Positions 1,907 to 28,474 of a stretch of 64,000 nucleotides of DNA are shown here, in pieces. A program made the position numbers and the translations under genes. Source of the DNA: Lytechinus variegatus (taxonomy: Eukaryota; Echinodermata; Echinoidea; Temnopleuroida; Toxopneustidae). The notes below the pieces were generated by a model, which was not told the DNA's origin, did not search any database, and saw only the letters and a list, made by a program, of their open reading frames with translations. Position 1 is the first letter of the stretch. Each line of letters opens with the position of its first letter. Location: contig NC_054747.1 in assembly GCF_018143015.1 (NCBI RefSeq), positions 32,271,233 through 32,335,232 of the forward strand, read 5' to 3'.

Positions 1907-2071
1907 CATTGTCGTTTGGAGATCCCCATTATATCACAATGGATAGGAATAATTTCACATTCAACGGGCTCGGGGAGTACACCCTACTTCGTTATGCTAT
2001 GAGTGGGACTAAGACAGGACCATTTGACTTCGAGCTCCAGGGGCGACAGATAAAGACACTTGATAAAAACG
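1907..2071 (+). CDS. Gene 1 exon: VWD domain start
   Basis: Acceptor ttgttgcag, donor gtaaga; enters with two bases of a split codon and leaves in phase 1. It encodes SFGDPHYITMDRNNFTFNG followed by GEYTLLRYA, the canonical opening of an SUSD2/mucin-4-type von Willebrand D domain. Confidence 0.88.
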
Positions 2072-5000
2072 GTAAGATGATTTCATTTTGCCAACACTTC
2101 TAATGCTAGGATAGCAGATATCTCTTTAAATTGACATTTCACATTCTTAAACATGTTAAAGGTTAGATGATTATTTTTTGGTAATTTTTTTGTTTATTAT
2201 GACACTTTGGCCTAAGGAGGCAAAAAAGATACATTACTCTTGAATAAGCGCAATTACATCAACCAACAATATAGGTCTACATGAACTTCATAACTTCAAA
2301 TAAAAATGCATTATGGAGAACACTAGCACTGGTTCTGTGCCACTGATAATATCTTATTCATAATAAATATCTTCCTTAAAAAAAATAAAAATGTTCTCGT
2401 AAATGTCAAAGTTGATGTCAATGTATGACCTGTGCCCTTTACCCCCACCCTTTCCAATCGTGTTTCTTGTACTATAAGTGTATTTTTCCCCTACGTTTAA
2501 TTCATTACTGATTACTGAAAATTAATATTATCAATTTTGCGCTTAGTGTTTTTTGGCTATCCAGCCTTATACGTTTTGTATTACCTTTCGTGGAAAACCA
2601 CGCAATTAATTTATCATCAAACACATTCAATGTTTCTTTGTATTGTTTTATCTTATTTCTGAAATAAAGATTGAATTGAACTGATTCCGTCATTTTACCA
2701 ATGTTTGATATGTAACATGTATATTTTGTCTTTCAATATGTGGGGAAATGTAAACAAACAATGTTCAATTACTTCAAACCTCCAGGTAGGGAAGTTGATG
2801 TGACTAAACTATCTTCGATCGCAATGCAGGACAGCGGTTCGGATACCATCGTTGTGGAGGCTAGCGCCAGCAGCGGTATGGACGTTTACAGAAGGGGCAC
2901 GGAAGACAACGCTGAATGGCAGTCGGTTTATTTCTCACATCAGACCTTCACAGATTTACAAGGTCACGGGAAAGCAAACTCGGTTATAAAAGCGATACTC
3001 CAGGCTAAAGATATTCATATTTCAATAAATAAAGTAAAAATTTACGGAGCAAAATGCAGAAATTTTGATCAAAATAGATAGGATTACAAATAACTTAGTT
3101 ATTGAATTGTAAACATTTGCATTTATTCGGTGAAACAGTTCGAGGCATGTCTTCACGAATATTCAATGAGCAAACTGATGATGTCACATCATACTTGTTC
3201 TTTTGTAATTTATTAAATTAAATTAGGTTTATTCAAAATGTTCTACCAAGAACTACCACAATTGGATTGACAACTGATTAAGTACATTAGTTATTTGTTG
3301 CTGAAACTTAATACATTATAATAGATACATTAATAGATACACAATTATGATTTCATGTAATAACATAAGAAAAGGGAAAGTGGGGATATGACATTATCAG
3401 CCCACCTAATAAATATTTATGATGACGTGCATATTGCTGTTTTGTCAAAGTATTGCTGAACTTTGAAATTAGATAACTTTGTTATTTGTTATATGATTTT
3501 GATAAAATTTTCAGCATTTTGCTTTGTGAATTTTACTTAATTTACTTGGATATAAATATTTTCAGCCCAGAGTATCGCTTTAATTCGAAATCACATTATG
3601 ACGTAGCCTAATTGAGGTAAACGGTGATAATAATACCTATTTACCAAAGGTTGCCGCTTTAGCTCCTGTGATCCGTTTTTTTCTGTCGAGCAAAACATAA
3701 AGTCTTCTAAAACGAGAGTCTGACAAAAAGGAAGAAGGTCTCATTTTCCCCGATTGCTAGGTCTCATTCCGAGTTTAAGCGATTTCCTGTCAACGAGGTG
3801 GTGTGGTCACTCTACCACTGAGCTACAGTGTCCGGTAAAATGCAATTTACACTGATTTAAATGATATGCATTTGTTAACATCCCGGCTTTTTGAATTTTA
3901 GATCCGGCACTGATTTGATAGTTTTGTAATGATTGATACAGCTAATAAACGAATCTAATCCAGTGCTTCGTAATGTTTACGTGATTGAAAGCCCCTGCCC
4001 TCTATGAAAAGATGACGTATGCAATTTTTACTTAAATTTAGAGAGTTGGAAAGCATTGCTGAAGATAAAGCCCGCGCGCGCGGCAGAGACTAAATGTTAG
4101 TTATTTTCTCTTTCTCCTATATTTGGATTGTTCGTTCCTTATTTGTCATCAGATTTTGAAACCCCTTTAAAAATATAATGTTACATATTGCCACAGGTCT
4201 TGAATAACCATTCAGCCTAATTGAAATGGCAAATAAAAGGTGAGATAATCTTTACAAATGCAAGAAAAGGGGGAAAACATCCATACACACAAGATAAAAA
4301 CAATGTAAAATAGTTAGGATATGTACAATCTTACGATCTTTCCTAGGTTGTGTCGTAGGCGTCACAGAATTTAAACTCGATGTCCAGATCCACGGTGTCG
4401 TCGTCATGTTCAAAGAAACCGGTATCGGCGTTGCAGTCAACTACCACGACGGAATGCTTGCTGTACAACCAATCCTGCCGTCGACAATAGATGTAAGATG
4501 TGCTTCTTTTCACCACAGTTACACCCATGAATCCGACTCGAGACCCACCAAAGGCATTACGTTATTACCAAGGACATACAATCGGTCGTTTTGGAGTCGG
4601 TTATGTTTGTGTGGCAGTGGCATGCTATCGTTATGTCAGGGAAAGTGTTGGCAAACTTGCTCTGCTCTCAGTCAATCAGAGTCAACTATTTCAGTAGCTT
4701 TAAACATTCTTTGTTCATCTAATGTTTAACTTTGGATAGTCAATCGTGTTAGAAATCTCGAACACAAAGTGTTCAAGTTTACACCACGTTTGAAGTTAAT
4801 TGAGCACTCTTCAAATTTTGTATTATTTTCTCAGCACTAATAGTCATATTATTCTTGGAATCGTTTTAATATTTGTTATCATCATCTAATTATTGGTGAT
4901 TAGACTTAGTGTAATTGATGATATCATTATCATTTTACATTATTGTCATCTTAACAATTGTGAATATTATCATTATTATTATTATCACTATTGCCTTTTG

Positions 5001-8000
5001 AGTAGAAGAAATAGTCGTATTATCATAATAACTATTGCCATTTATCATCATCATCATTGTCATTTTTACAAAATAAATTTGAATGTAACTTCTATATAAA
5101 ACAATTTTTATATTTGTTTTTACTAGAGCGATCATTTGTCTGGGTTGTTTGGCAACAGGGATGGTGACCCCAGCAACGACTTGGAGGCACGGAACAGAAA
5201 CACCCCACTCGAGGATTCGACAGATGAAGATATTTTCCAATTTGGCCAATCATGTAAGAAACACCACGATGACATTACTTTATTGCAGGTGTTTCTTGTT
5301 TATAACATTATCATGGGACCTTAAACATAATGTACAGGCCCTTATCCTAGTCTCGGTGAAGGGGGCATCGGGGTGCCCAAAGAGCCCCCCCCCCCCTCCC
5401 CATTCTTGTCATAATGTACACGAATATTACCTCTCCCTGGGCATTGGTTAGTGACGGAAGCTTCCTTTTTTATCACAGACTTTTATGGACTTTTTACAGA
5501 CTTTCAGGAGTAAAATCTTTCCCATTTGAAAACGATTGGGAAAGATTTTACTCCTGAGATTATGGGGGTGACATGACACAATTGTAGATAGCAAAGATGA
5601 CCAACTTTATTTTTCATTCCATGCTTGACAATAACAACAATAACACATCCCCTCCCCATTCCGAAAACTGGGATCCGCCCATGCTAAAAAATGGACCCAT
5701 TAAGAAGGGGAGAATGGGACGGAAAATACCCTTTTCACAGTTTTTAAGCATACACTTCTCTCCAGCTAAATAATGTGAGTTCTAGTCTAGCGCTGAGAGT
5801 TTATCTAACACTGCTTTCAAATCTAACATGGATGTTATATTAACGTTGAGTTTACAATGTATATCTTACGCTGAGTGCAAATCTAACGTTGAGTTTATAT
5901 CCAACGCTGAGTTATAATCTCGTATTCCACCATGGGCGGAAATTCTTTCCCCAAATGTATGTGGGACCAGGGGCTGGAAAATTGAAAGGCAAAAAAAGGA
6001 GGTTATTTACTTCAAATCACATGTATTTTTCGGTTGTGAATGATGTATTTTTCTCCATCATAAAAGACCAAAAATAGTAGGGGGACATCTGATATTGTGT
6101 CCCCTTAGGATTTCCGCCCATGTATCTAACATGTTTAATGCTTAACCTCATTATCTTTTTTGATTCCTAACAGGGGAGATCGAAGCAGATTACACCTTAT
6201 TCCGATACGTGTCAAACAGGGACCATTCCTTCTACCACAATGCGTCATTCGTTCCTCGTATGAACGTAGTTCTCCCAACACTTTACTCACCCTGTAACAA
6301 CATTTACCAATGTCTGTTCGATTACGAGGTGTCAAATGACGACGAGGACCTAGCCCTGGCTACATTGGATGCTTACGAGAAATTTAAGAGCAGCTCGGAA
6401 AACATTCGTAAAAGTAAGCCAACTAGAACAAAATATGAGGTTTCTCTTTCCCATCGAGGTTCTATGAAACCAATGTCCATTCTTATTTAAATCATATAGG
6501 CTTGCAAAGGTACAATTAAAACCTAGGCCTACTTATATATTTTCCTCTTATTATTGTTTATATAATGTAGTACTCTTTTATTTATTTGAAAATTTATCCC
6601 TGCAAAAATACATGCAATAATAAATAGTATCCCGTTACTTATTCATCTTTGTTTCATAGAATGCATAAGCTAAAACGTATCGGCATCGGAACTGTGATGT
6701 GGATATTTTTTGCATATCTTCCTTATTTTATTTTTTTCAGAATCTCTTTAAAATAAAGTATACTGCTAGAAGGGCCTCACTGATAAAATAAACTACTTAC
6801 AAATCAATATTCTTTGAGCACTTCTAAAGTGATACTCCCAATATTCGAAAATTCTTCTTCATCTTGAGATGGGCTTACTGTAGATTTTTTTTTTGTTTAC
6901 TTCGTAGCATCTTTGAAAAAAATCTCTTTCTTTCCTTTACGTAGTCGACGCATGCCCGTATCTGATTACACCTTACAATGGCACAAAGTCGTACTCGTCA
7001 GATTCGAATAAATATTTTGAAGGCGCCGAGGTCACATTTACCTGCGATGAGAGTTTATTAATGGTTGGCTCATCCTTCAAGCGATGTGAATATGACATGG
7101 AGGCAGGAAGCCTTGTATGGACCGGATCAGAAGGGGATAATGAATGTATAGGTAAGAGCTTTGTGCAGGAACAATCCACAAACTCAACCTATACCTCTGC
7201 AATATGTAATAAACGTAAAAAGGGAGTTAAAAAAGGTCATAGTGATGATTAAGATATTACCAATAATACTAATAGTGGACCCCCCCCCCCCCCCCTCCCG
7301 ACCCCCAAAACACGTGAAAGGATATCGTTTTCAAGATAGGGCACGTAACGTAAGAAGGGTGTCAAAAACACAAAAGGGAAAATCACGAAAAGAAAGCTAC
7401 GTGTTTAGGATCAAATTTGCGGGGATGATAAAACAAAATTAAGATGTTTTATGAAGGATGTCCTTTTTGCCCCAACACTACGTGTTTAGAGTCCGATTTG
7501 TGCGAGGTGTGGGCCGTACAAATCCAAATGATGTGTAAAGGTAAAACCGACGGACCCGTGACATAATAAGATATCGCTGTTCGCCCCGACATGCATCGGT
7601 AAGTTTACCTTTCCCATATGCCCTTTCCTACATTTTTATCATATTTTTCCATTCCACTCCAATTAAATGGCTTAAACCCCACCCGGTTCAAAACTTTTTT
7701 TTTTGTCACGTAGGTCTATAATAGCGGGCATAGTGGTCCAGAAGTAAAAATGCTTTTGACCTTTGACGCGCAATATCTATGTGCCCATGGATGGTATGTG
7801 CGCGCATATATTTTAGTTTATGTTGGTGAGGGTGTGTGAGTGCGTGTGTATTCATGTTCTGGGTGCGTGTGTGTGAGTATGGAAAAAAAAGTGAGGATAA
7901 CGAGAGAGGGGGGGGGGGGAAGCTACTTCCGATACAACCCGACAGAGTCCAAATATATGGAGAGAAGCGAGATGAAACAGCAAATTTATGTATGGTTTTA

Positions 8001-11000
8001 TTTGTGTGAGGGATGTGCGGTGCGCGCGCGCGTGTGTGTGGGGGAGGGGGATGTCTGTGCTTGAATGCCAATTAGAGCGTGTGGGTGTGTAAGGGTGTGT
8101 CTGCAATGGTACATGTAGACCAACTCCATTGAGTGTGGGTGAGGATTTGTGGGTGGTGTGTGGTTGTGAATGTGTGCGTCTGCAGTGGAGTGTAGAGTAT
8201 TTTATTTTTACTTTCTATACAACAAAAAAGGACAAAATAAAGCAGAAATCACTTTCCATCATTGTGCATGTATAGTTTAGGGGGAGAAAATGATTACAGA
8301 AAAAAAGGCGGTGGAAATTTTGGTTTACAAAGAGGTACAAACTTCAATGCACAGGATGATGTTGGAATAATGTTTGAAGGGGAGGTTTGTTACACGCATA
8401 AATGTACATGTAATAAACGCCCACAAATGTGATAACAACTACAAATGTAATAACACTTTAACAACAAATGTGATAACGCCCACAAATGTAAAAACACTTT
8501 ACCCACATATGTAATAATTTCACCCACAAATGTAATGATGACTTTACCCACAAGTGATATGAATTTAAAGGGATTTTGGGCGAACGTGTTCTAAACTAAA
8601 ACTCAATAGTAATGCGTTCATATAGTGACCAGATTGTATAAAACATTTAAACAATCTTCCAAATAAAGATCCCAACATTAATTATTCTTAATATTGAATA
8701 ACATGGAAGTATAGCGTAGTCTTTCATTCAGACCCATATACTTCAAATAGCAAGTAAAAATGATAAATGTTAATAAAAAAGACCCTCACTATCTTATTAA
8801 TGTTAAATAGCATGGAAATGTAGCGTAGTCTTTCATCCAGACCCACATCTTTCAAATAGCAAATTATTAATAAAAATGATAAATAATGATAATAATAATA
8901 AACAAAGATCCACGATCCTATTTATGTTGAAAAACATGGAAATATAGCGTATTTCCTCCAGACCTAGGTATAAGAAATCATTAAAAACAAAACAACAACA
9001 AAAACAAAGACCCTGCAATCTCAGAAACATTGAATAGCATGAAAATATGTTGTAGTCTTTGCTCTAGACCCAGTTATTTCAAAATAGTAAATAAAAAGAA
9101 CAATAAAAACCAACAAACGATATTAACAAAGACCCCACAATACATTAAAGTTGAATAACTTGAAAATATGTCGTAGTCTTGCCTCAAGACCTAGTTTTTA
9201 TAAACAACGAATCATAAAAAAGATAGATAATAATAAAACAAAGATCCCACAATCCTATTGATGTTGACTAACATGGAAATATACACAGTCTTTCCCCCAG
9301 ACCCAAATATTTCGATTAAAAAAATCATAAAATACATATAATATTTTTTTTAAAAGGCCCACAATCTTATTGATGTTGAATATCATGGAAATACAGTGTA
9401 AAGTTTTCCCCAGCCCTACTTATTTCAAAATTACTAATCATTTTAAAAGGACCCCCTATCTTATTAATGCTGAATAACTTCTTCTAATTCTCTCTTGTGT
9501 TGAGTTGGCAACCAGTCAGAAAATGACTGTTTTTGCCTCTGCTTTGATTTGGATCCTTCTTTGTGGGGATGGAAATTACTTTCTCTTCGGCATCATTTTT
9601 CCTATTTTACTTTCTTTTCTTTCCTTCCCATTTTTTTTTATTTTTCTCTCTTGTTTTTTCTGTGAATATTTTTTTCTTTGTCTTTTCTTTTTCCCACCTC
9701 TTTTCTTTTAGTTTCGTTTTTCTGTTTTCTTTATTTTCTTATGCTTTTCCTTTTTTTCTTGTTCTTTCCTTTTCTTACTTTTTTCTTTTTTTATCTAATT
9801 CTTTTCTCTATCTTTATTTTCCTCTCTTCTTTTATTTCTCTTTTTCTTTTTTCCCCTTTTTCTCGTCTTTTAACATGGGGAAATGGCGTAGTCTTTCCCC
9901 CAGATCCAATTATTTCAAAATAACAATCATAAAAATCTAAGACCCAACTACCCTTCAAACTAAATTAAGTTTTTTTCTATTCCAAACCTTGTCATTTTCA
10001 ATTATAAGACATATGAAATCTTTATATCTAAGACTTTATGCCTGTTCAGCACGATTAAATTGATTGGGAGCATTTCATCAACATTTATACTGTTTTGGTG
10101 CTGTTGTATTGTTATTCATAATATATTAACTTGGTGTGGCTGAAAGACTACGCTATATTTCCGTGTTATTCAACATTATTATGCGGTCTCTATACTGGTA
10201 TTTGAATTATTTATAATTTTGAAATAACTCGGTTTGGAGGAAACACTATGCTATATTTCCATGTTATTCAATATTGCCAAGAGTGTAGGGTCTATTATTA
10301 TTTTTTATAATGATTTTTTTCGGTAATGGATGATGGACTACACTTTATTTTCATGTTGTTCAACATTAATAAGATTGTGTAGTCTTTTTTAAAGATTTGC
10401 TGAACGCTTTAAACAACCTGGGTCCGCAAAAATGTCTTTGTGCTATATGAACACATTACTATTGGGATTTAGTTTTTAGTTTTAAGTATCTGGGTCTGGA
10501 GAAAAGACTACGCTTGATTCTCATTTTATTTCATAAGAATATCATTATGGTATCTTAGTTTGGACTTATATTATATTTTTTTTAAATAACCCGGTCTGGA
10601 AAAAAAGACATTGCATTTTTCGCTATATGAACACAATACTAAAATGTTTTAGTTTTGAGTAACCGGGTCTGGACAAAATACTACGCTTGATTCTCAGTAT
10701 ACTCTTAGCGCATATATTCTCAATATCGCCATATAAGTAAAAAGGACATTTATTCCACAAGTTTCAATTAACTTGGTCTGGAGAACTAAGTTCGGTTTTT
10801 ATTCCACTGGAATATCATTATGGTATCTTAGTTTAGACTTACATTATAATTTTTGAAATAACCGGGTCAGGAAAAAAAAAGACGTTGCACTTTTGCGCTA
10901 TATGAACGTAGGATTTTAGTTGAGAACGGATTCGTCCAAAATCTCTTCAAATTTATTACATTTGTGGGTAAAGTCATTATCACATTTGTGGGGGATAAAA

Positions 11001-14000
11001 AATATTTCATTTGTGGGTAAAGTGTTGTTACATTTGTGGGCGTTGTTACATTTGTGGGTGTTATTACATTTGTAGGTGTAACAAAGGTTTAACTTGAGAA
11101 GTAATACAAACCGAAGCTTTCTACTAATTCTTTATTTCCAAACTAATGCTAGTAAATATATACAATGCGTAGGAATATATAATAATCACATTATGATTTT
11201 ATATTTACATGTATTATTGTTTTAAGTGAAAAATAAGAACCTGATAATTGCGATATGAACATGGAAAATGTGGGGATATGAATGATAAAAAACATGAATT
11301 GTGATTATGGCATTCAACAAACCACGCCTCAGCCTCTATCAATGATCAATGTAGCCCCGAATTTATAATGCCTGCAAATTGGAGGTCTGTGGAGTGTGAA
11401 AAGTTCTGGTCAAAAAATAAAAATTTCACATTCATTTGTACTTATAGATGAAAAATTGTGCAGTATTTATATATTTTGAACTATCTCCTTCATAGGACAA
11501 TGGACAGAACCAACCCTCCTTTCTCCCACAACTGGTATGTACTCCTGTTCCCTATTATTTAATCAATTCATACTTTATCGAAGATTGCAAATCACATGCC
11601 ACGCTTTTCAATATATTGCACAGATAGTCAATTTTTCTTTATCAGTGGAAAGGGATACAAATTTTTCTCTTATGCAATATTGCATATCAGATAAGTTTTT
11701 ATCTAGTTTATATTTCTTTGTATTAACAAGGGTGTGTTTGAAGCTCCCGAGAATCATGCTTGCATGGAAACGAAAACAATTAAATTGATATACATTTGTA
11801 CTTCAAAAGGATATCAAGGCAAACCATTGGCATTGGAAGGGTGTTTTTTTTCTTCGAAATGTGGTGCTGGTTTTGAAAAAGAAAATAACAAGCAAATTTT
11901 TTTTTCACTTCAAAGTTGAGGTGCTTTTGGTCAAATTTCACTAGTTGAGCATGCCGTGATAACTTCGAGGGTTGCCGCATACGGTATTCCAGCACCCCCA
12001 GCAACTCCGCTTAAAATGAAAATGGGAAAAAAAATATTTGAACACATTACGATTTAGTCGTGAAAAGTATGCCCTTGGTTATTACTTTTCTTGCGGCGGC
12101 AAGGCCCGTAAATTTCTTAAAAGGAACTCGAAAGCGAGGGAGCAAATCGACCGAGCTCGTCACGGGAGCCCTTTAGGATCTCCTGAATTGACATTTATGC
12201 TATCTTCCGTTGTAAAAACGTATTTTTTTTTATATTTACCCGCAGCATACAATCATGGAATCGTTTCTGTTTTAGTCCATTTCATTATAGCATGAGCCGT
12301 AACAGAGTTAGCCTATTATCTAGGCGGAGGCTGCAGTTATTGTCTTTGCTTCACATTGTTTCAACTATGCATAGTGGCTGCGTTAGCCAATACACTCTGT
12401 CTGCCCAATCAATATTCATGTATTCATCTCGTCCTTTCACGTGTTGTGGAACCGGGATCCGTACCCGGCAGCTGTTATTCCCCACTTTTCGCTGTGCCAA
12501 CTCAGACGGACTTTGCGACGGTGTATTGATTTTGGAAGACTTTTGGGTCCGTCGTCATGGTCGTAAAACACTGTCCTGCAATGCAAACTGTGTTACATGA
12601 GAATTGTTTTCGTTTCGCAACTCCAACGGAAGGATTCAATCTGCGTTTTTGTGTGCAAAATTCTGGTTGCTACTATGGTAAAAGCGATATATCTGATTTA
12701 GGACGACTTTCCAGAGCCACATTTGGTTCCTTCTTGAGCTCCAGAGGCCACCCGGGGGCCCAATGCCATTGACGAGTGGATACCAGGCGCGGCCATGCGT
12801 AAAAAGCGAAAGAGTGGTCAAGTACGTTACGTATTAATAGGCCAAATGTAACGTTATAAGGGTGTCAAAAACGATGTCTAAAATACTTAAAAATTTATAC
12901 ATTTCCAGTACTTGTAGGATTACAGGAGCCAAGTACTTGTTAAGAGATGCATTTTCATTTTCTGGAAAAGACATGCTTCCCTTGTTTATGGTGTTTTTTA
13001 AAAACCCCATGATCGCTCCTGGTATCCACTTGTCAATGGAAGTGATCCCCCGAAAATTCGAATCTAATCCCCCATTTCGGGGGAGAGTAAAACATAATGC
13101 TCATTACGTTGTGTGCTAGAGGCATATAGATGAATTTTGCACACGAAAAGCAGATCTATAGCGCCATTTTCATTTTCTGTACTAGATTTAACCCAGATTA
13201 TCAAAGAGAGATATTTTACATTGTACTTAAACCGATAAATAGTTGTACAGTTACTCATATCAGCAGGCAACCGGTTCCACTCTTTAATACAAGATGTTAT
13301 GAAAGAATTCAAGGAAACATAGTTCTTACATAAGGTCGGTGGATGAGGTTTTGTTCACGTGTATTGTAATTATGTATTTGGGAGTTAATCGGGAACATGT
13401 CTTTAAAGTGGCAAATTTGTGGACAAAAACGAAGATTAAACATGAAAATCAACCGATTAAATGCAACTAACTCATCAAGTGGAAGCAACTTTAAGTGAAG
13501 GAATAAGGGTTTACTATGATGTCTGGAAGTTGAATTGGTGATGAGCCTCAAAATTTTCTTCTGTAAAACTTTTAGTTTGTCAATGCAAGTCTTAAAAGTA
13601 TTGCCCCATGCAACTTTGCAGTAGGTCAGTTGGGGAAGCACAATCCTGGTATATAAGGTTTTTAAAATAACCTCAGGTAAAACACATCTTAATCTACACC
13701 TCGAGAAACCTTTGTACACACTGACTCTAAGTGGGGTTTCCAAGTCAAATGCTCATCGATAATTACTCATAGAAATTGAACATGCTCGCTACGAGCAACA
13801 TTGTGGCCTCCAACATCAAGATTATCCACAGTTTCTGGAATACTTTTGCCTCTTGATCAAAAAATAATACATTTTGTTTTCTTAAAATTCATCAAAGTTT
13901 ATTACAACAGAACCAAGCTAGTTTATGACGTTTCGACCAGCGTGTTCTGATAGTCATCAGGAAAGATGACGACCAGAACACGCTGCTATTCTCTCAAAAA

Positions 14001-17000
14001 ATTTGCTTACGATAGCTGTCCACTGCATTTTGTATTATATGTATGTCTATGTAAATTATTCTATTATGTAATCGTCACAATTTGTAATTCTTTCATTTCA
14101 TTTTGTATTTCTTTGTGCATGTATGCATTATGATTACTGTGTTTCATATATTGAATTTTCAATAAATGCAGAAACACCTTCCAAAAAAATTATTTATTGA
14201 TTCTCTCGATTGACTTTTATTTTTATGAACAGGTTCAACTATACCCCCGTTGACAATTGGTATGTATTAGTTTCGACATTTTATTAATTTAATTTACAGT
14301 TTTTGTGTATTTAATTTGTTCGACAACTGAATCAAATCATTAGAATGGGGACCATAAACCAATATAGACTGTTTAGGAATTGATATTTGGCGATATGGAA
14401 TGTGGACTGCACATATTGACATATAGCAAGATGTCTTATCTAAATATTTTATGAAGAAGTCATTTTGCACTTTTCGAATTTTTTACATACAAGTATTTTC
14501 CCTTCACAACGATAGAATAAAACATGGATAGACATGCAAATCTGTATTAAACCCTAGGCATAAAAATCCCCAAATTCAGGTTCAAACGTACATCCGTCAC
14601 CAAATATTCCATTTTACCTGTCATCCAAAATTAATAAATAAATTGGACATGGCAAGTTATATGTAACATTATGACATGCAAATATCAATGTCGCTTAAAT
14701 GCTTATTTGCCAACAATATGCGATTATTATTTGGTATTTAAGATGATAGGGTCCAAAGTCGGTTTATTATTTTTTTTCCTGGATTCCAGACGATGTGTCG
14801 AGTCCAAAAATTATTTCAAAAGTTCCTCTTTCGATGATCGGTCGTTTTTTCTGATATTCCCCTTTCCATCTTAATATTACAACAAAATAACAGTGCACCT
14901 CCGAATAGAATATTTCCAGATTGATGACGTTATTTATACCTCTTATTGCCACTATTTTATTAGTAGTAGTACTATTAATATTATTATATCCATTGATATT
15001 ATCATTAAGGAATTATACTGCAGACTTTAAATGAAATTAAAATACGTACCTTAATTTAACGTTGTAAAAAAGTTCGCTCGAAAATTAATGTTTTTGGTGC
15101 AGGAGAGGGTGGGAGCGGCAAAGGAAAACTGGTATAAATTTAGTATTACTGTATGAATATATTGTGGAAAGGTTTTTTTTTAACTTTAGAATAATCGTCT
15201 ATTACAATTTTCGGGATATGTTTTGATGGAGGTTCGACAATTGCAAATTTGACCAATTTTTAAGGCTGAAAAAAAAAACGTATACCTGTATACACGGTAT
15301 AAATGAGATGAATGCAGGGGTCAACATACAGTATCGCATACTGGGTTGAAGTGCGGACCTAGTACCTCTGGATCCATGGTAAATCTAAGGGCCTTTTTTA
15401 CACATGAATCTTGAATCCTCGTTGTAATGATGAATGTAAGCGTTCATTATTCTAATCATGTTCTAATTTAGTTTCACACGTGTGGCTGATGATGTCATAT
15501 CCCCAGTTGTTCCTTTGTATTTTATTATATGAAATTAGGTTCATTCAAAATTGTTCTCCCAAGAACTACAACAATTGGATAGACAACTGATTAAGTGCAT
15601 TATTTATCTATTGCTGCAACTTATTTCATCATGATGGAGACACATCATTTACACATGTATGAAAAAAATGAAGCAATTATGATTTCATGTTATAAAATAA
15701 GAAAATGGAAAGAGGGGATGTGACATCATTAACCCCTAATGAATATTCATTACGATGTGCAGCCTGTTTTCACAAAATATCGAAAAATTTTTAGATTCAA
15801 TAACTTCGTTATTTGTTATCCGACTTTCATATTTTTTGTCGGCAGTTTGCTCTGTGAATTTTTTTCCATTTATTTCGATATAAATATTTTAAGCCCGGAC
15901 CATCCCCTTAATAGCAATTAAATTTGTAAAAACTGTTTTAACCTCTGGTGAGGAACCTTGCTCACCAATCATAGACCACACCCGACCTATGTACTCCGCC
16001 TGGATTTCCCTCTCATTCCTCTTCAGGAATAGTTGTCTTAGCCATCCTTCTGTTAGCTTCAATCATCATCAACATTGTACAGCTCATACTTCCAGTGAGA
16101 AAAAATATTCCAGGTGATTATTATTCATCAGTTCCTTTAAAATGTTTAAAATGAGAATGCAAAAGTTGATTTACACCTTCAAGAAAGGGGACAACCTTAA
16201 AGGTGTATCTCCAAATGTGCTCTCAGTATTTGTAAAGGCGCACAGTTGAACTTTTTTACAAGATTATATGCCCTATAAACCTTATGATGAATAATAAATA
16301 TTTTATTGCAACATACAGGCTATAACAATTACAATTCCATAAATCCAAGCTGTAAACCTTTTGTTTAGGAGGGGGTGAACTACTGTTTAATCCCCGTCCA
16401 ACTTGAAACGTATGACGTCATGTATTTTACGCCCATGAACAATAACGAATACTGAGAGTATCATAAAAGACATAGCAAACATGTTTTTTCTCCTCTGATA
16501 CCTGTATGGTGTATTATCACGTATATAAGGTGGGTTGGTTACTAGTTTTTACCAGATTTCCTCTCGATGCTAACATTTTGTAAAAAACCTCTCTTCCGTA
16601 ATTTATATTTATTTTATGGAAAAATTGGAACTGAAAACCTATAGTGAAGGTATATTTATCTTTAACATCTTAACCTCGAGTAATAAATCTTTTTCACATC
16701 TCAGCTTACACGTGGCTTCATTTCATTTCCTTATAACTCTTTGGCAAATATTGTCTATTTACATTTACTATTTTATTTATTAGAGTTCGATAAGTCAAAG
16801 AAGAATGACAAAGGGTAAGTGGAAGGGGGAAGGGGTATTAATCACACGCCCAAATACACCCATCAATCCAACATCCCCTCTCGCATTATACTGTATACAA
16901 ATCCTCATTACCACAAACTGTTTCACACAGACACATCCTCAACTCTCCCCACATGTAAATATACACACGCACACCCATCTACACATTTTTATAATAACAA

Positions 17001-20000
17001 ACACCCTCGCACCCTCTTTCTCACATTTACAAGCGTTCATGTACACAAACTTATGAACCTTTAACACACATGCACGCACACATAGCTACCTTATCAAACG
17101 TACACCCACACGCGCATTTCCACATCCTGCCACGCCCACACTCAAACCCCAAAACCTCAACACTCACACACCATCAAACTCTCAGAAACTGGTAGGACAC
17201 AACCGAATATCTACCCTCACACATATCTATATACTATTTTCAAATACCAAACCACTCAAAGCACCGAACACAATTGTAACTATATACCCTTCACCTCAAC
17301 ATACCTGTCAGCATTAATACAAGTGCATCCAATTGCAACTTTGCAATTTTACCAAGGTGCATGTATACATGGTATATAACGTGCAACATAAAGACAAAAG
17401 GATAATTTCATTTTAGGAAATATATATTTTAATGCTCAGTATAAATCCCATTTCAAATATCTGATCTTCTAATGATATTTAGTATATGATAGAATTTCAG
17501 ATTTTGGTTCACTAGCTACTAATGTATTATTGAGTTTGCTCGTTTCTACTCTTGCCTAATCATCATATTTGGAAAATGTACTACGTATTCATCATATTGT
17601 AATTTTTGTAGTTTCAAGTTATTTTTTAATCCCATTCATAGCAACAATTTTTTTATACAAGCTCTAAGATAGATAATCGCTATCGGTAATATCTATTGAT
17701 CAATGTTTCACTGATTGTGCAGGAATGTTGTTAGTGCCATGAAATCCATTTGAATAGGCGTAAGTAACTATGAAATTAAATCATCTTGGAGTCTTTCCTT
17801 ATCGATGTAAAACAATCAATTATTTAAAAATTATTTTATTATTTTTAAAATAATACTTTCCTTGTACAGAGATGAAGTAAATACACAACAGGAGGGGAAT
17901 GATAACGTGGCCTATGAGATGATTCAAAGCGGAGATCGAGGTGAAAAATTATGCAAGAATGTTTCTAATTTTCTTTTCTCTATAATTATGCATATCACGG
18001 ATCATATTTCATATCAGATATACGGCTATAGTTTTCAATAACATCTTTTCCATCTGCGACATAGTGCCGTAGCTTTGCAACATCCTCATAATTCAAAATC
18101 ATCACATTTACTGATGAATATGATGCTAATTCCAAATTGTAAAACCTAAATAGCTAACATACACATAAACGGTTTCTCTTGTATTTTTTGTGTGAATGCT
18201 AATAATATAAACACAGCATTTATTGTGCGCCATCTATCTAGTAAACTATTACGAGGCGAGGAGTGATACAAGAAAAAATATGTTTGCCTGTCTGGAGGTA
18301 TGGTCAGATCAAATTACAGTAACATATTCAACCAAAGTAAAAAGAAACGAGAAAGGGTTTTGAATACTTTGTAAATGTTTAAAGCGATCCAATTGTTCGA
18401 ATCCTCAATGGAAGGTCATTCCAGAGAGAGAGAGAGAGAGAGAGAGCTGAAGAGGAACTGTTGAATTTTGCAATGCTTAATCTCTAATCTGTTGCATGAA
18501 CATCACATTCTATATACTAGAGCACGATAAACCTACGTTCATCATAATTACCTTTGTTTTATTTCAGATGGATTTGATGTTTTGATTATGGCAGTAAGTG
18601 TTCTGACTCAATTTCTTTTACGTTTCTTAAAACAATGCAGCATACACAGCGTTAAAACTTGGTGCTACCCACTCCTTCGTCATTGCCCATGAAAACTTGA
18701 CATTCTTTACCAGACTCGGTTCGATTGGACGGGGTGACTTCGGCGTGGTATGGAAAGGAGACCTCCGCTCAAACCAAAAACATCTTGATGTTGCTATCAG
18801 GCAAATACCAGGTAATAGTGTACGTAATTCACTTATTCAAGCATTTTTAATGAATATGACGGAAATTCGAACTTTTTAAGATCATGCTTGATTTGTCATC
18901 ACAATAAAAAAATGAATATCCTAATTAACGAATAATAGTAGGATGTCATTCAGGACATGTAGATAATGTAGATTGGAAAGTGATTCACTAGAAATTGGTT
19001 AAATTGTTTTCATACGACTAGTAGAGTCGGGTTCTCTTGGATGCAACTAACATGCCTAACATGAGGAGGAGGGTAGGGGTACGCAAATGAGGTACATGTA
19101 CATGCCCACAATTTAAAAAGTGTTCATTATTATTATCTTGTTACTTCACCAGAAATTGGTCATGGGAAAATAATCCTTGAATTTATATATATTTTTTTAA
19201 GTGAATGTTAATGATATTATTTTTATGTACCATTATTAATAGATCGCGTGACAAAATCACTTCACGTACTTCAAGCCATCAAGGTACTTTACAAGCTATC
19301 GGATCAACCAAATATTGTAAGATGTCTAGGATATTGTAAAGAGCAAGGTACGTAAAGCCTCTTTAATGATATCGGAAATTAAAATACAAGAGGTTCTCTG
19401 TAAACGACAGTGAAATGTATCCTCTAGTTTAAACGATAGATATATCTAGGTCGTAAGTACTGTTTTGCATTGTGTTTTTACATGTAAGTCCCGGGGAGTC
19501 CGCAGTTTGAAAGAAAATGGCCAATTCCAGCTTTGGAAATGTCATTCAAAGTAATCATGAATTCTATAAATAAGATAAAGGGTAATAATGATAAATCATG
19601 AGTAATAGTAAAAATAAAAAAAAATTAAAAAAAATCCCCTCATTTTACGATCACAGAACCCCTTGAAATGATTTAGTGTTAGTCTGATTCAAGAAAAGCG
19701 AAGCACAGGACATAGTATTCCATTCTTCTCCTGCAATACTAAGGATTGTTTATTAAACATAAAGTCACGGAACATACCTTTCTGCAACGATCGTTTATAT
19801 ACATTCAATTTGTAGGAAGTATCCTGTATGATTTCATCTCAGGGGGTACACTACTTACCTATCTACAGACTTCAGGGGTGCAATCTCAACCTACGTACAG
19901 CAATCTCAAACCAAACGGTGTTCGTATTGATGAGGGTACCCTACTTAACTTGGCTTGGCAGGTTGCTAAAGGGATGCATTTCCTTGCTTCTAAGAAGGTA

Positions 20001-22667
20001 ACATCATTTATTGGTATCCCTTAACAAAGGGAATCAGAGGTGAAACGGAAATTAGTTAGGATTAGAAATATAATTAACTTTCAAGTTTATGTTATTATCA
20101 ATTCGGGAACCTTTCAGTTTCAAACAGTGGAAGGGTAACCCAAGAGACTTGTTCATTCTCAAACAATGAAAAAGATCCAAATAAAATAATACCCCCAATG
20201 ACTCATAGATTTGGTTGTAATATTTTTTTTTTCCTTTTTATTCAGATCATCCATGGAGCTCTCTGCGCTCACAATGTGTTGCTAGGAGAAAGAAAACAAT
20301 GCAAGATATCAGACTATGGACTTTCTTCATCGTTCTTCGGTGACGTAGCTGTAAGTGTGATGTGTTATGCCAAATAATAAGGAATGTTTATTTTGTAACT
20401 TCATTTAGAGCTCTTCTCCTATTTCTGAAGATAAACGCAAATATCTGGTATTTAATGTAACAAGGTTGGTATCTGAAGAATTGATCCTTTTGGTTTTATT
20501 ACTCAGCCTGCAAATATACCAGATTTGCTGATTTTACATCATTATTCTTTGAAATTGTATACGTTAACTACAGATTGTAATTGGCAATCGATTGAATTAT
20601 TGCTTTAACACGATAATTTGTATACCGTCACAGAAACCTACAAGATGGAGTTCACCAGAAACCATGGTAACGGGTGACCAAACAACAGAAGGAGACATCT
20701 GGTCTTTTGGTATCGTCTTGTGGGAAATTGTGACACTGGGTAAGAAAGGGTGTGCACGAAGTTATGTTTGTAAATGTGTAATGTCCGATTATTAAATCTT
20801 ACATATCCATAGATAATGTTGTATATTAACGATGGTTGTTTTGAAGATGATAATAGTCACAGTACAATAATGATAATATGACTGTGCTGATAGGCTAAAT
20901 GATACCAACGCAACGACAATTATCACATGAGTACTACACCACTGCCCTTATTTTCCTGCTTCAACTTTCAAATCCAATAAAAAAGCGACGGAAAAAATTA
21001 AATATCTCTATTCGTTTTCATCGGGAGTTAATAATTCAAATTTCTTCTTGAACTGAAACGCCGGGTGATGTCAAACATGTTAATATGCTTTAAAATTGAT
21101 ATGAATTAAGTTATTAAAATGAAAAGTAGACAGGAACGCACAAAGTTTTGATTGACTATGAGAAACGATATGTACTGGAATATTGCAATACATACATGAT
21201 AAAGTAAAACTTTTACCTTTATTTCAGAGCACGAGCATTGTAACTTTCTTTATTCTGATAGGTGCAAGGCCATACCCAAATAAAACATTCGGCGCGGTTC
21301 AGACGGAGGTTGCTAATGGTTACCAGATGCCACGCCCTCGTCACTGTGCACAAGAAGTGTAATTTCAATAACATTCTTAATCTTTGATAGATTTTCCTCA
21401 AGCTTTCATCAATATAGTGGAAGAGCCGTGGTGTAGTTGTTCTGACTATCGCCCTGTAAACAGGGGGTCGTGTGTTTCAATTCCAACCGCGGTCTAGCGT
21501 CCTTTGGCAAGGCCTTAATCCACACTTTGCCACTCTCGACTCAGGTGCTAAATGTGTACCCGGTAGGATGTAAAAGATATTGTATGTTTGATTTTGCCAG
21601 CACCATAATGAGGCTGCGATGAATGCAAGGAATGATCCCCGGGGAGTGGAAATTGTGGACTCTTCGTGCGGGATTGAAATGAATCCATGACCAGGGTGAT
21701 AGTATGCTGTAACGTGCTTTGAGCCATTCTGGGAAAAGCGGTTTATAAAAATTGGTTATTATTATTTTTATTATTTTATGATTTTTTTCTGGCATTTTTA
21801 AAACAAATTTTTCTTCAGGGTGACCTTCCCCTTTGATAATTACGGTGTTATAGGAACGTCAATTCGTTCCCTTTACAGGAGCAATCCCATAAGGTATGGA
21901 CCTATGTACGTCCATGCATAAAGTGGTGTAATAAAAAAGAAGTGTTATAATATGAACAAAGACTGTTTAAATATCACATGAATTTAAGGATGGTGTAAAT
22001 CTCTATTTGTGGCTCACAAATGATAACATGGACTATTATTGCATTGTGAATAAAGAACTGATATCTTATTTCACAGGTACTCGGTTATGACTGGATGTTG
22101 GGAGAAGGATCCTACAAAGAGGACCAACTTTGATCGGATCCTGAAAGATTTGGAAAGGATTCTAGAAAAGACTCATGTAAGCTTAAATTTTGATTCCACA
22201 CAATTTGATCTCCTGCTGTGATACTGCTTGACTTTGCTGTTATCATGTTTATCAACCATAGGGCAACATACGATTGAAATCTATTGTTTTACCTGTATAC
22301 TATACTATGCAGTCGCGTTAGAATAATTAAGCCATGCGACTTACTTCCCATATTCAATAGCCGAAATTAAATTTGGGTACCCGGTTGCCTCAGATTGCCC
22401 TCCCCCCGTAGATTTGTTATTTTTTTCTTCCCCTGTTTAATAATTTGTATCTGTAATAACGTTGTAATTTCAGTAAATATTGAAGTATTCAAAAATTTGA
22501 TTATGAATTTGCTTGATGAAAAATGCTGAATACTATCTATTTATATCACATTGCTATTGGCTGATTGATAACGGACTTTAATTGTCTGTATCGTTCAATT
22601 TTCACAGAGCTACCTGTCACTTAATGACTTGGATGAGCAGTTGTATGCGTCTACCAGTGATATGTGA
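1907..22667 (+). CDS. Gene 1: SUSD2-like (VWD-sushi) receptor tyrosine pseudokinase, 5' incomplete
   Basis: This is a single-pass membrane receptor spliced by eye from 19 exons (listed separately). It gives 746 residues plus a stop, with all phases compatible. Order: VWD domain, SUSD2/mucin-4-type linker, sushi domain with four Cys, short stalk, membrane helix, juxtamembrane region with two Tyr motifs, tyrosine-kinase-like domain, and a short tail ending in Ser-Asp-Met. Seen: GRGDFG glycine loop, VAIR in place of VAIK, HGALCAHN in place of HRDLAARN, DYG, SPE, DIWSFGIVLWE, and GCWEKDP. Known: the VWD-linker-sushi-helix order is that of SUSD2, which has only a short cytoplasmic tail. Inference: the ectodomain is joined to a catalytically inactive kinase that may act as a scaffold or partner. 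Gene 2 shares the intracellular half exon for exon. The 5' end lies outside the window, so total length and signal peptide are unknown. Confidence 0.82.
2786..2962 (+). CDS. Gene 1 exon: VWD domain, second part
   Basis: The acceptor is a weak cctccag and the donor gtcacg is a poor match to consensus, but phase 1 at both ends fits its neighbours. It reads LSSIAMQDSGSDTIVVEAS and continues through a WQSVYF segment, as expected for the middle strands of a VWD domain. The donor could be misplaced by a few codons. Confidence 0.72.
3165..3585. repeat. Dispersed repeat, copy A
   Basis: This stretch aligns by eye with 15485-15913 over nearly its whole length, sharing ttaggtt-cattcaaaa, caattggat-gacaactgattaag, and the ending atataaatattt-agccc. 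Both copies lie in gene 1 introns in the same orientation. Its type is not evident; a MITE is likely. Confidence 0.75.
4347..4492 (+). CDS. Gene 1 exon: VWD domain, third part
   Basis: Acceptor ctttcctag, donor gtaaga; enters in phase 1 and leaves in phase 0. It encodes beta-rich VWD sequence including FKETGIGVAVNYHDGMLAVQ, which fits the late strands of the domain. Confidence 0.85.
5127..5253 (+). CDS. Gene 1 exon: VWD domain end with calcium-loop motif
   Basis: Acceptor tttttactag, donor gtaaga. It encodes SGLFGNRDGDPSNDL, the GLxGNxxGDPxxDL calcium-binding-type signature of VWD domains, and ends in FGQS with a split Trp codon completed by the next exon (FGQSW, as in SUSD2). Confidence 0.9.
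5505..5556. repeat. Short perfect hairpin in a gene 1 intron
   Basis: Two arms of about 19 bases (aggagtaaaatctttccca and its reverse complement) surround a loop of about 12 bases. It lies between the last VWD exon and the linker exon. It may be a tiny MITE remnant or a transcribed hairpin; nothing distinguishes these. Confidence 0.6.
6174..6413 (+). CDS. Gene 1 exon: SUSD2/mucin-4-type linker after VWD
   Basis: Acceptor cctaacag, donor gtaagc; phase 1 at both ends. It encodes WEIEADYTLFRYVS, then a segment with Cys-x5-QCLFDYEVS and DLALATLDAYEKF. This matches the conserved region between VWD and sushi in SUSD2 and mucin-4-type proteins. Confidence 0.88.
6945..7151 (+). CDS. Gene 1 exon: sushi (CCP) domain
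   Basis: One symmetric phase 1-1 exon encodes a whole sushi domain: Cys in ACPYLITPYNG, Cys in VTFTCDES, Cys in FKRCEYD, the conserved Trp in LVWTG, and a final Cys in NECI. Sushi domains are usually protein-binding modules encoded by one phase 1-1 exon. Acceptor ctttacgtag, donor gtaaga. Confidence 0.92.
7152..8387. other. Gene 1 intron with simple-sequence tracts
   Basis: It holds a C run near 7280-7297, a purine-rich stretch to about 7440, and a GT-rich low-complexity tract at about 7795-8190. I see no exon. Open frames within the GT tract are by-products of base composition. Confidence 0.6.
8388..11083. mobile_element. Fold-back element, copy 1 (2.7 kb, sub-repeat arms)
   Basis: The ends are TGTTACAC at the left and GTGTAACA at the right. 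The outer arms consist of short sub-repeats based on cccacaaatgtaataac (inverted as acatttgtgggta at the right), with tgaacgcattact-type sequence inside them. Further in, degenerate units of roughly 80-120 bases containing agtctttc-cagacccggttatttcaaaa run in one orientation in the left half and inverted in the right half. A T-rich pyrimidine tract (about 9580-9870) lies near the centre. I found no transposase-like frame and no clean target duplication (aggtt and aaggt flank it). It lies in the intron between the sushi and first stalk exons. A second copy is at 41953-44397. Confidence 0.8.
9580..9870. repeat. Polypyrimidine (T-rich) tract within fold-back copy 1
   Basis: Nearly 300 bases consist of T runs with scattered C and few purines. 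The long Phe-rich open frames here reflect composition, not genes. Confidence 0.8.
11496..11534 (+). CDS. Gene 1 stalk micro-exon 1 (39 bases)
   Basis: Acceptor cttcatag, donor gtatgt; phase 1-1. It encodes QWTEPTLLSPTT after the split Gly, a Thr/Pro-rich extracellular stalk. A comparable Thr-rich micro-exon (TTEKWTTSHPTT) occurs in gene 3 at 63684, which supports both. Confidence 0.68.
12040..13065. other. Gene 1 intron segment, repeat-like but unclassified
   Basis: I could not assign this stretch to an exon or a known element. Positions 12290-12860 have higher GC than the surroundings and look like part of an inserted repeat, but I could find neither ends nor a conserved frame. Confidence 0.35.
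13070..13885 (-). mobile_element. LINE fragment: 3' end of a reverse transcriptase ORF, minus strand
   Basis: Minus-strand frames read, in order, a degraded stretch near 13880-13745 resembling KTK-IIF and LDVGG-type RT sequence; then LYTRIVLPQLTYCKVAWGNT, LQKKILRLIT and IHNYNTREQNL; then FITSCIKEWNRLPADMSN. This is the C-terminal part of non-LTR (CR1/Jockey-like) reverse transcriptase ORFs. The 5' part is missing and the frame shifts between about 13310 and 13064, so it is a dead, 5'-truncated copy in the intron between the two stalk exons. Confidence 0.85.
13905..13990 (-). mobile_element. Penelope-like terminal fragment with a hammerhead-like core
   Basis: On the minus strand, CTGATGA is followed after 19 bases by GAAACGTC. 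The spacer can form an imperfect stem, and a neighbouring inverted copy (gaccagaacacgctg) suggests the ancestral stem was perfect. Penelope-like retroelements are known to carry hammerhead ribozymes at their ends, and tttatgacgtttcg looks like that kind of end. The assignment rests on this motif alone; no Penelope reverse transcriptase is present. Confidence 0.45.
14233..14259 (+). CDS. Gene 1 stalk micro-exon 2 (27 bases)
   Basis: Acceptor tgaacag, donor gtatgt; phase 1-1. It adds STIPPLTI after the split Gly. Its support is the two splice signals and the phase; being so short, it may be optional. Confidence 0.55.
15485..15913. repeat. Dispersed repeat, copy B
   Basis: Partner of 3165-3585, same orientation. 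Just upstream, 15395-15480 has another repeat (catgaatcttgaatcctcgttgtaat) related to 58590-58976. Confidence 0.75.
16027..16113 (+). CDS. Gene 1 exon: membrane helix
   Basis: Acceptor ctctcattcctcttcag, donor gtgatt; phase 1-1. It encodes GIVVLAILLLASIIINIVQL followed by ILPVRK, a hydrophobic helix with a basic stop-transfer end. The homologous gene 2 exon (33566-33703) starts further upstream and carries 17 extra codons of extracellular sequence. Confidence 0.88.
16784..16814 (+). CDS. Gene 1 juxtamembrane exon 1 (31 bases)
   Basis: Acceptor ttatttattag, donor gtaagt; enters in phase 1 and leaves in phase 2. It encodes EFDKSKKNDK. It matches gene 2 exon 34544-34574 in length, phase and sequence, which makes this tiny exon credible. 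Confidence 0.82.
16830..17230. repeat. CA-rich intronic tract shared by genes 1 and 2
   Basis: This C/A-rich stretch (acacacgcacaccca-like words) directly follows juxtamembrane exon 1. Gene 2 has a similar tract at the same intron position (34600-35200), so it predates the duplication. The open frames within it are compositional. Confidence 0.7.
17870..17940 (+). CDS. Gene 1 juxtamembrane exon 2 with first Tyr motif
   Basis: Acceptor cttgtacag, donor gtgaaa; enters in phase 2 and leaves in phase 1. It encodes NDNVAYEMIQSGDR. VAYEMI fits the ITIM consensus (S/I/V/L-x-Y-x-x-I/V/L), and YEMI fits the Yxx(I/L) half of an ITAM. The same exon in gene 2 reads NDNVAYEMVRSGDG. Confidence 0.87.
18425..18447. 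repeat. (AG)n microsatellite
   Basis: A run of about 11 AG repeats in an intron of gene 1. Confidence 0.9.
18641..18811 (+). CDS. Gene 1 exon: second Tyr motif and kinase N-lobe
   Basis: Acceptor acaatgcag, donor gtaata; phase 1-1. It encodes AYTALK, then FFTRLGSIGRGDFGVVWKGD and DVAIRQIPG. The glycine loop is intact, but the ATP-anchoring Lys of VAIK is Arg. Joined to the preceding exon, the two Tyr read YEMI-x6-YTAL. Confidence 0.9.
19243..19347 (+). CDS. Gene 1 exon: alpha-C helix region
   Basis: Acceptor ttaatag, donor gtacgt; phase 1-1. It encodes LQAIKVLYKLSDQPNIVRCL. By alignment to LxEAxxLxxLxHPNIV, the alpha-C Glu that should pair with the VAIK Lys is Ala. PNIV and the following LGYC are typical of tyrosine kinases. 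Confidence 0.9.
19816..19997 (+). CDS. Gene 1 exon: hinge and alpha-E helix
   Basis: Acceptor caatttgtag, donor gtaaca; enters in phase 1 and leaves in phase 0. It encodes the hinge ILYDFISGGTLLTYLQ, a kinase-insert-like loop, then LLNLAWQVAKGMHFLASKK, equivalent to the QVAxGMxYLxxKK of receptor tyrosine kinases. By eye there are 11 differences in 182 bases from the gene 2 exon. Confidence 0.92.
20246..20350 (+). CDS. Gene 1 exon: catalytic and Mg loops, degenerate
   Basis: Acceptor ttttattcag, donor gtaagt; phase 0-0. It encodes IIHGALCAHNVLLGERKQ, then CKISDYGLSSSFFGDVA. The HRD Arg and catalytic Asp are replaced (HGA). The Asn of the loop and the Asp of DxG remain. The activation loop is short and has no Tyr. 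Confidence 0.93.
20634..20739 (+). CDS. Gene 1 exon: P+1 loop and alpha-F helix
   Basis: Acceptor accgtcacag, donor gtaaga; enters in phase 0 and leaves in phase 1. It encodes KPTRWSSPETM (the counterpart of PVKWMAPE) and GDIWSFGIVLWEIVTLG, diagnostic of the tyrosine kinase group. Confidence 0.93.
21262..21358 (+). CDS. Gene 1 exon: alpha-G region
   Basis: Acceptor attctgatag, donor gtaatt; enters in phase 1 and leaves in phase 2. It encodes ARPYPNKTFGAVQTEVANGY, then QMPRPRHCAQEV, matching the PYP...GYRMPxPxxC stretch of receptor tyrosine kinases. Confidence 0.92.
21415..21775 (+). mobile_element. tRNA-derived SINE
   Basis: A tRNA-like head (gccgtggtgtagttgttctg as box A region, gtgtttcaattcc as a worn box B) is followed by a unique body and an AT-rich ttattatt tail. 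It is inserted just after a gene 1 kinase exon. Confidence 0.75.
22077..22176 (+). CDS. Gene 1 exon: C-lobe CW motif
   Basis: Acceptor ttatttcacag, donor gtaagc; enters in phase 2 and leaves in phase 0. It encodes YSVMTGCWEKDPTKRTNF and DRILKDLERILEK. This is the CWxxDPxxRPxF motif, with Thr in place of Pro. Confidence 0.92.
22608..22667 (+). CDS. Gene 1 last coding exon
   Basis: Acceptor ttcacag; phase 0. It encodes SYLSLNDLDEQLYASTSDM followed by TGA. The gene 2 counterpart differs at a few residues and also ends in Asp-Met. Confidence 0.92.
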   Translation, partial: SYLSLNDLDEQLYASTSDM

Positions 22668-26029: not shown

Positions 26030-26218
26030 ATGCATATGTCCGGTAGAAGAAATATTATGACATTGATGGACTTCCATATAGTCTATGATGATGGATCAAT
26101 CGAACCTCTTTGGAAGACAGACCCAGGTGTTGGTGTATGGAGAGAAGTAAACAAATTTTCACAGACTGTTATATTTAAATTTGAAGAAGATGGTCTGTTT
26201 CCATGCCTGTTCGGGTGA
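26030..26218 (+). other. Unassigned open frame
   Basis: A 62-codon frame contains MDFHIVYDDGSIEPLWKTD and WREVNKFSQTVIFKFEEDG. The amino-acid texture is protein-like, unlike the simple-repeat frames nearby, but I recognise no family and see no splice context. It abuts the MITE at 26231. It could be a relic exon or chance. Confidence 0.25.
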
Positions 26219-28419: not shown

Positions 28420-28474
28420 ATGATGGCACCTTTCACGGCTTTCCGAGTTTATACAGCCATTCTGCTTGTTTACG
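28420..28474 (+). CDS. Gene 2 exon 1: signal peptide
   Basis: It begins with two ATG codons and encodes MMAPFTAFRVYTAILLVY, then a split codon with donor gtaatt. It has a short polar start and a hydrophobic core. The phase 1 exit fits the Ig exon, and the total frame divides evenly, which supports this start. Confidence 0.72.

Follow-up and report, generated by a model that had tools for sequence, protein, structure and literature searches.

A candidate chimeric receptor gene joining a Mesh/SUSD2-like ectodomain to a predicted pseudokinase in Lytechinus variegatus

Mesh is a protein of the insect smooth septate junction with the domain order NIDO-TIG-AMOP-VWD-sushi-TM, which PMC4964579 gives for a beetle orthologue too. 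In human SUSD2, the GDPH site is cut between D and P in the ER, and disulfides between the two fragments are needed, the protein staying tethered at the cell surface (PMC6696261). Regarding the evolution of receptor tyrosine kinases (RTKs), PMC8662651 describes ectodomain shuffling, a phase-2 intron at alpha-H in most human longDE kinases, and the CCK4 family, which it names as pseudokinase receptors. Finally, re-analyses in lancelets warn that an apparently new architecture may stem from the merging of adjacent genes during prediction (PMC4967905, PMC6071037), which can give rise to claims of new domain combinations in invertebrate genomes. Merged neighbours are also the main rival to the combination reported here. 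A preliminary description of the present locus knew of no described receptor kinase with a SUSD2-type ectodomain, and we likewise found no receptor combining a Mesh/SUSD2-type ectodomain with a kinase in the literature searched, which covered few subscription papers. We also know of no pseudokinase receptor with an ectodomain of the Mesh type.

We analyzed a 64,000-nucleotide stretch of Lytechinus variegatus DNA (C8:32271233-32335232, hereafter the window, whose coordinates we use throughout, on the plus strand unless stated). Translated exon by exon, the spliced frame of gene 1 is open from 1907 to 22667 across 16 exons, giving 713 residues and a final TGA. All of its introns are GT-AG, and the phases agree at every junction. 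This bears out the single open frame previously proposed from a VWD domain via a sushi domain and a membrane helix to a kinase, although the 19 exons then counted were not reproduced. Six exons run from VWD to sushi, one encodes the membrane helix and nine encode the juxtamembrane and kinase parts. In Pfam, the 713-residue model gave a complete tyrosine kinase fold (217.5 bits, profile positions 6-258 of 258) and a VWD domain (29 bits, cut-off 22.9), together with a MUC4 C8-3 region just below the cut-off of 25 (24.3 bits) and a sushi domain below its cut-off of 20.7 (18.3 bits). Over all Pfam searches, the latter two scored 24.3-24.9 and 18.1-18.7 bits, respectively.

The VWD domain is spread over four exons, at 1907-2071, 2786-2962, 4347-4492 and 5127-5253, with the GDPH motif at residue 4 of the model, near the start of the first one. 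A MUC4-type C8-3 region with two Cys six apart follows at 6174-6413, and then a sushi exon with four Cys and a phase-1 donor (gtaaga) at 6945-7151. An internal-exon scan with a codon model picked 14 of the 15 internal exons of gene 1 at their exact borders, the transmembrane (TM) exon at 16027-16113 included, and missed only 19243-19347; on the entire minus strand of the window it gave seven candidates. Since the codon model was trained on the very gene 1 exons that it recovers, this recovery is partly by construction, which does not hold for the gap that the scan leaves empty between the sushi and TM exons. Independent confirmation of the ectodomain exons comes from a paralogue at C8:36.52 Mb (paralogue A), while a second TM-kinase copy within the window confirms those for the membrane helix and the kinase.

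Gene 1 extends to the left beyond the window. The last 17 bases of its second AMOP exon, which starts at coordinate -257, occupy positions 1-17 and end at a donor (gtaaat) in phase 1, matching the phase of the exon at 1907. When the exon scan was applied to the 30 kb left of the window, the joined exon peptides gave a NIDO domain with 61.8 bits and an AMOP domain with 127.8 bits (profile 2-141 of 143), both against a Pfam cut-off of 25. Another exon in this flank, reading LSVTPARCGMMGGERIYLYGPCW, is unnamed by Pfam; by eye it is TIG-like and resembles the TIG domain of Mesh. The exon set recovered there is partial, as some listed phases mismatch and NIDO lacks one exon or more, and the scan found no start codon for gene 1 in these 30 kb. 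As the flanking DNA adds NIDO, the TIG-like exon and AMOP, the gene 1 ectodomain is, by its predicted domain content, of the Mesh/SUSD2/MUC4 type, and Mesh is therefore a closer namesake than SUSD2 alone. Of the SUSD2-type ectodomain with a kinase-like domain proposed earlier, the joining of the two between phase-1 introns stands, while the ectodomain needs to be renamed.

By searching the 869.6-Mb genome with the VWD-sushi part, we recovered the window itself and copies at C8:36.52 and 38.77 Mb (72-92% amino acid identity, depending on the matched stretch), which are about 98.4% identical to each other. More distant copies lie at C8:5.99 and 6.05 Mb (47-76%), and four weak matches were to VWD only. 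Paralogue A contains all six VWD-to-sushi exons with equal lengths, intact splice sites and 91-96% identity. Its own membrane exon lies about 2.1 kb past the sushi exon, is in phase 1 and reads DGDIDPGDNNALVIALSVVFSLIFIVLVVVGVFVFLRYWQYGSFNTEKQA, that is, a helix and a short tail, the end of which is uncertain because a TGA overlaps a possible donor. Similarity between the window and paralogue A ends at 8040, about 0.5 kb short of where this TM exon would fall. With E values up to 1, the exon matched only two places in the genome, at 36.525 and 38.771 Mb, and none in the window. From this comparison of copies, the ectodomain copy in the window has lost its own membrane anchor and short tail. 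Near-identical stretches such as those at 36.52 and 38.77 Mb, as well as a repeat spaced by 831 bases in gene 2 of the window, could suggest an assembly misjoin that put a Mesh-like copy next to a kinase array. There is no N in the window, however, and with 4-9% difference between its exons and those of paralogue A, the window copy cannot be A in a wrong place; we consider a misjoin exceedingly unlikely.

The intron that follows the sushi exon (7152-16026) appears to be chimeric. At 8.9 kb it is longer than any of the other 14 modelled within the window, which counts against the fusion. Stretches up to 8040 match the intron of the Mesh-like paralogue A, similarity to the kinase family begins at about 15970, and between these points only repeats match anything that we compared. 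The scan that does find the TM exon at 16027 gave no internal exon candidate in 7152-16026. Among the repeats, a dispersed element made of short ACATTTGTGGG-type units in both orientations occurs at 8388-8625 and 10437-11091, as well as in a gene 2 intron (41967-42188 and 44072-44405). On the minus strand, 13312-13752 holds an open frame of 147 residues which looks by eye like a C-terminal fragment of a reverse transcriptase and has no Pfam match.

One could read this locus as two genes: a truncated Mesh-like copy, secreted and ending after the sushi domain, and then a gene for the kinase of gene 1 (K1) with an own, unseen start. Were the sushi donor left unspliced, the frame would continue for about 32 residues before a stop (ORF 6917-7252), and an AATAAA at 7208-7213 follows directly after the sushi exon; besides, weak ATG candidates and two TM-like terminal frames are present in the gap, and fused annotations of neighbouring genes are common (PMC4967905). 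A relaxed start-exon scan gave four candidates in the gap, none of them convincing, where the rate on the minus strand, 13 per 64 kb, would predict about 1.8. The strict form gave none in the gap but none for gene 2 either, and therefore has low power. Regarding the two TM-like terminal frames, compared with none in another 16.5 kb of the plus strand and two on the minus strand, one lies in a pyrimidine run at 9712 and the other, at 12324, has no Pfam match. Against two genes, each of these gap candidates is of low complexity, adjoins the sushi exon, shows no homology or crosses the TM exon in the wrong frame. The gap has no internal exon candidate, the sushi donor is strong and kept in paralogue A, the kinase would be left without an ectodomain, and a new in-phase acceptor has arisen at 16027. 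Taken with the points in its favour, two separate genes seem improbable to us.

Two narrower variants were rejected. A kinase gene starting within the gap was discarded for want of a good signal-peptide exon, in a scan of low power whose relaxed form gave the four candidates against about 1.8; and a Mesh-like part keeping its own TM exon in the gap was discarded, the TM exon of paralogue A being absent there.

In unit U of the kinase family (C8:31.877-31.887 Mb), the TM exon includes the stalk TTPEPTPCPCAPSGLSSGASAG, and the stretch that encodes it is pyrimidine-rich in gene 1. Positions 15970-15985 of gene 1 match unit U in 15 of 16 bases, the sole difference changing the acceptor AG to AT. 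None of 20,000 shuffles of the 120 bases before 16027 matched as well, and neither did any of 1000 shuffles when any 16-base word of the unit U stretch was allowed; a MAFFT alignment of this stretch differs from the ungapped match. These 16 bases are thus a putative relic of the older TM-exon acceptor of the kinase family. At the acceptor now in front of 16027, 19 of the 20 bases before the AG (16025-16026) are pyrimidines in gene 1, versus 12 of 20 at the same site in unit U and 10 of 20 in gene 2. Using a matrix trained without the TM exons, the acceptor scores were 7.0 for gene 1 and 3.0 and 1.8 for unit U and gene 2, respectively. When the sushi donor is spliced to 15975, the frame is wrong and runs to a stop, whereas splicing to 16027 gives the helix and the kinase. 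A mutated old acceptor and a strong, in-phase one at 16027 are the pattern expected if the join of 7151 to 16027 is in use, and we infer that it is. We also considered a duplicated block beginning exactly at 16025, which was rejected given that the similarity to unit U reaches 15970.

The mutated acceptor could also be a sign of decay, with the two halves lying side by side in a chimera that is functional no longer. On the other hand, the frame is intact over 16 exons and the acceptor was replaced, and we found purifying selection on both branches. Counting by parsimony, we placed 15 nonsynonymous changes and 17 synonymous ones on the ectodomain branch of the window (omega about 0.24, P = 8e-5 versus neutrality), and 9 and 12 on that of paralogue A (omega 0.20). 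This test covered 340 of 353 codons, left 10 changes unpolarised and used as outgroup the 5.99-Mb copy, whose synonymous sites are saturated. On the kinase-1 branch we counted 9 nonsynonymous and 10 synonymous private changes (omega about 0.28, P = 0.006) over 220 codons, those covered by three or more reference units being the only ones used for K1; L018 (the same unit as K3) and L015 (on the other strand, with no codons) were left out. Both halves of gene 1 are under purifying selection on their own branches, part of which, on either branch, may be older than the fusion. A decaying chimera is hence, in our view, very unlikely.

The membrane and cytoplasmic half of gene 1 starts with the TM exon (16027-16113, phase 1 to 1) and the juxtamembrane exon (17872-17940, NDNVAYEMI). 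The kinase exons, assigned by the open frame together with the unit alignment or the exon scan, carry the Gly loop and VAIR, with the Lys lost (18641-18811); alpha-C (19243-19347, from frame and alignment); the D-E insert and alpha-E (19816-19997); HGALCAHN, with HRD lost, and DYG (20246-20350); SPE and DIWSFG (20634-20739); a segment ending at an intron before YSVMTGCW (21262-21358); and the end of the C lobe (22077-22176). The last exon, placed by the frame, is 22608-22667 and ends in the TGA. The intron at 21358/22077 is in phase 2 and falls at alpha-H. In the units of the family whose exons could be aligned, VxIR replaces VAIK, and with it the catalytic Lys, in all six having that exon, while eight of eight distinct units have lost the HRD Asp and read G[AST]L there, with the H aligned in seven and DYG kept. 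In the alignment of gene 1 to TIE2, and depending on it, the alpha-C Glu falls on Ala. The full-length tyrosine-kinase-like domain of the preliminary description is accordingly complete as a fold but catalytically degenerate, and is a predicted pseudokinase from a tandem family. An active kinase was rejected, as the catalytic Lys and HRD Asp motifs are lost.

The TM, juxtamembrane and kinase exons of gene 1 are homologous to those of a tandem array on C8. The D-E-insert exon was found at 11 places on C8 between 31.24 and 32.35 Mb, with weaker matches outside this region, two of them on C17; the C8 region holds at least 11 units of a pseudokinase receptor family, interspersed with Ig exons, and is a notable receptor family in its own right. 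A search for relatives gave none in a viral sequence collection and a single match in a prokaryote collection, 22% identical, in a bacterial MAG. The next unit, gene 2, has an Ig exon at 29241-29564 (Pfam Ig, 39.7 bits), with a second copy of identical translation at 30072-30395, and a possible signal-peptide exon at 28420-28474. By paralogy to gene 1, its TM and kinase exons run from 33566-33703 to 48620-48719, with a last exon from 49198 and a stop at about 49255-49257; its TM acceptor is weak (0.7), so the border of that exon is less certain. The two genes share the membrane and kinase part and not the ectodomain. In blastn, collinear pieces, introns included, extend from 16025/33615 to 24091/51198, and the kinase domains differ with dN 0.062 and dS 0.35 (288 codons). 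The interval between the genes has an open frame of 76 residues without a Pfam match (TLMDFHIVYDDGSIEPLWKTDPGVGVWREVNKF..., 25988-26215). Both Ig exons of gene 2, together with 28867-29166 and 29698-29997, form a direct repeat with a spacing of 831 bases, identical over 300 bases and in the Ig translation, which reflects either a tandem duplication of very recent date or an error of the assembly.

When we searched with the gene 2 Ig exon, all ten matches were on C8, between 31.70 and 32.30 Mb: the two of gene 2 itself, four with 63-69% identity and four with about 30%. These matches were located by similarity, and the splicing of each Ig exon to a kinase is an assumption. No exon of this type matched between 32.2027 and 32.3005 Mb, the span holding gene 1, although diverged Ig exons could escape; the search also misses diverged Ig-like exons that the window itself contains at 57-63 kb. 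Those lie at 56967-57311, about 57618-57875 and about 62560-62820, upstream of a third kinase unit (K3); two of them have sub-cut-off Pfam Ig matches and the third has none. In the same region, a long inverted repeat (59121-59529 and 61640-62051, arms 92-99% complementary, about 2.1 kb between them) is probably a mobile element. The exons of K3 span coordinates 70075 to about 76962, and its TM exon was not found by similarity; downstream of it, at about 85268-88972, open frames resemble a retroelement polyprotein by eye. To the left of the NIDO exons of gene 1, 26.9 kb left of the window (coordinate about -26859), an open fragment (PATAGTDVTITCDI...) looks Ig-like and has no Pfam match. It may belong to gene 1, to a neighbour or to neither, and could be the remnant of an older ectodomain; gene 1 may thus have an older Ig exon upstream.

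Altogether, gene 1 is probably a real chimeric pseudokinase receptor gene that arose by an intronic fusion between two phase-1 introns, as read from the DNA. Exon shuffling at phase 1 introns had been suggested before; both junction introns are indeed in phase 1, but the event looks like an intronic gene fusion and not as if one shuffled exon had been inserted. We propose that a Mesh/SUSD2-like gene (NIDO, TIG-like, AMOP, VWD, C8-3, sushi) was duplicated and that the copy lost its own membrane/tail exon; a join within an intron would have linked it to the TM and cytoplasmic half of one member of the tandem pseudokinase receptor family. Gene 1 should encode a type I membrane protein. Given the GDPH motif and the SUSD2-like Cys spacings, processing as in human SUSD2 is likely: the VWD domain would be cleaved at GDPH in the ER, with disulfides keeping the pieces together. 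By analogy with Mesh, the ectodomain might have a role in adhesion or at epithelial junctions. Catalysis being unlikely with the Lys and the HRD Asp gone, the cytoplasmic part would not phosphorylate and could serve as a platform for docking or allosteric control, with a partner kinase phosphorylating its juxtamembrane tyrosines.

These tyrosines lie in YEMIQSGDRAYTAL, where YEMI-x6-YTAL (17872-17940 plus 18641-18811) fits an ITAM-like pattern. The arrangement is also found in K3, and unit U appears to have it. It is a lead only, as it is common in shuffles (365 of 5000 of the K1 tail) and its strict form is missing in K2. It is conceivable, though we would not expect it, that gene 1 is a young gene whose product senses the state of epithelial junctions, with a GDPH-cleaved, disulfide-tethered Mesh ectodomain and an ITAM-like tyrosine-motif/pseudokinase platform taken from an expanding array; one intronic fusion would then have turned a barrier protein into a signalling receptor. 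Close relatives of both parents of gene 1 survive in the same genome, and the lost exon and the replaced splice site are still readable. If its transcript is confirmed, gene 1 would document well how a new receptor architecture was born, and would allow one to test what an adhesion protein gains from an inactive kinase.

By comparing gene 1 with the known systems, we found that its kinase has TIE2 as the best single-domain match in the PDB (172 bits), a two-copy EGFR chain ranking higher only as the sum of two 104-bit stretches. In that alignment the activation segment of TIE2 is longer than that of gene 1. Like the longDE RTKs, gene 1 has a phase-2 intron before YSVMTGCW; unlike TIE2 and the longDE RTKs, it is without the VAIK Lys and the HRD Asp and has a Mesh-type ectodomain. 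With the pseudokinase receptors it has in common a degenerate kinase domain carried by a receptor. AMOP and VWD with GDPH are shared with SUSD2 and MUC4, and so, probably, are C8-3 and sushi, which score below their Pfam cut-offs; the Cys spacing is 6, 37, 30, 14 and 20 in gene 1 versus 6, 36, 26, 14 and 13 in human SUSD2 (one further Cys of the VWD domain being uncounted); gene 1 differs in its cytoplasmic kinase fold and in the presence of NIDO. Finally, gene 1 follows the order of Mesh, with NIDO, a domain that is TIG-like by eye, AMOP, VWD and a probable sushi domain before a single membrane helix, but has a pseudokinase half where paralogue A keeps an exon for a TM helix and a short tail.
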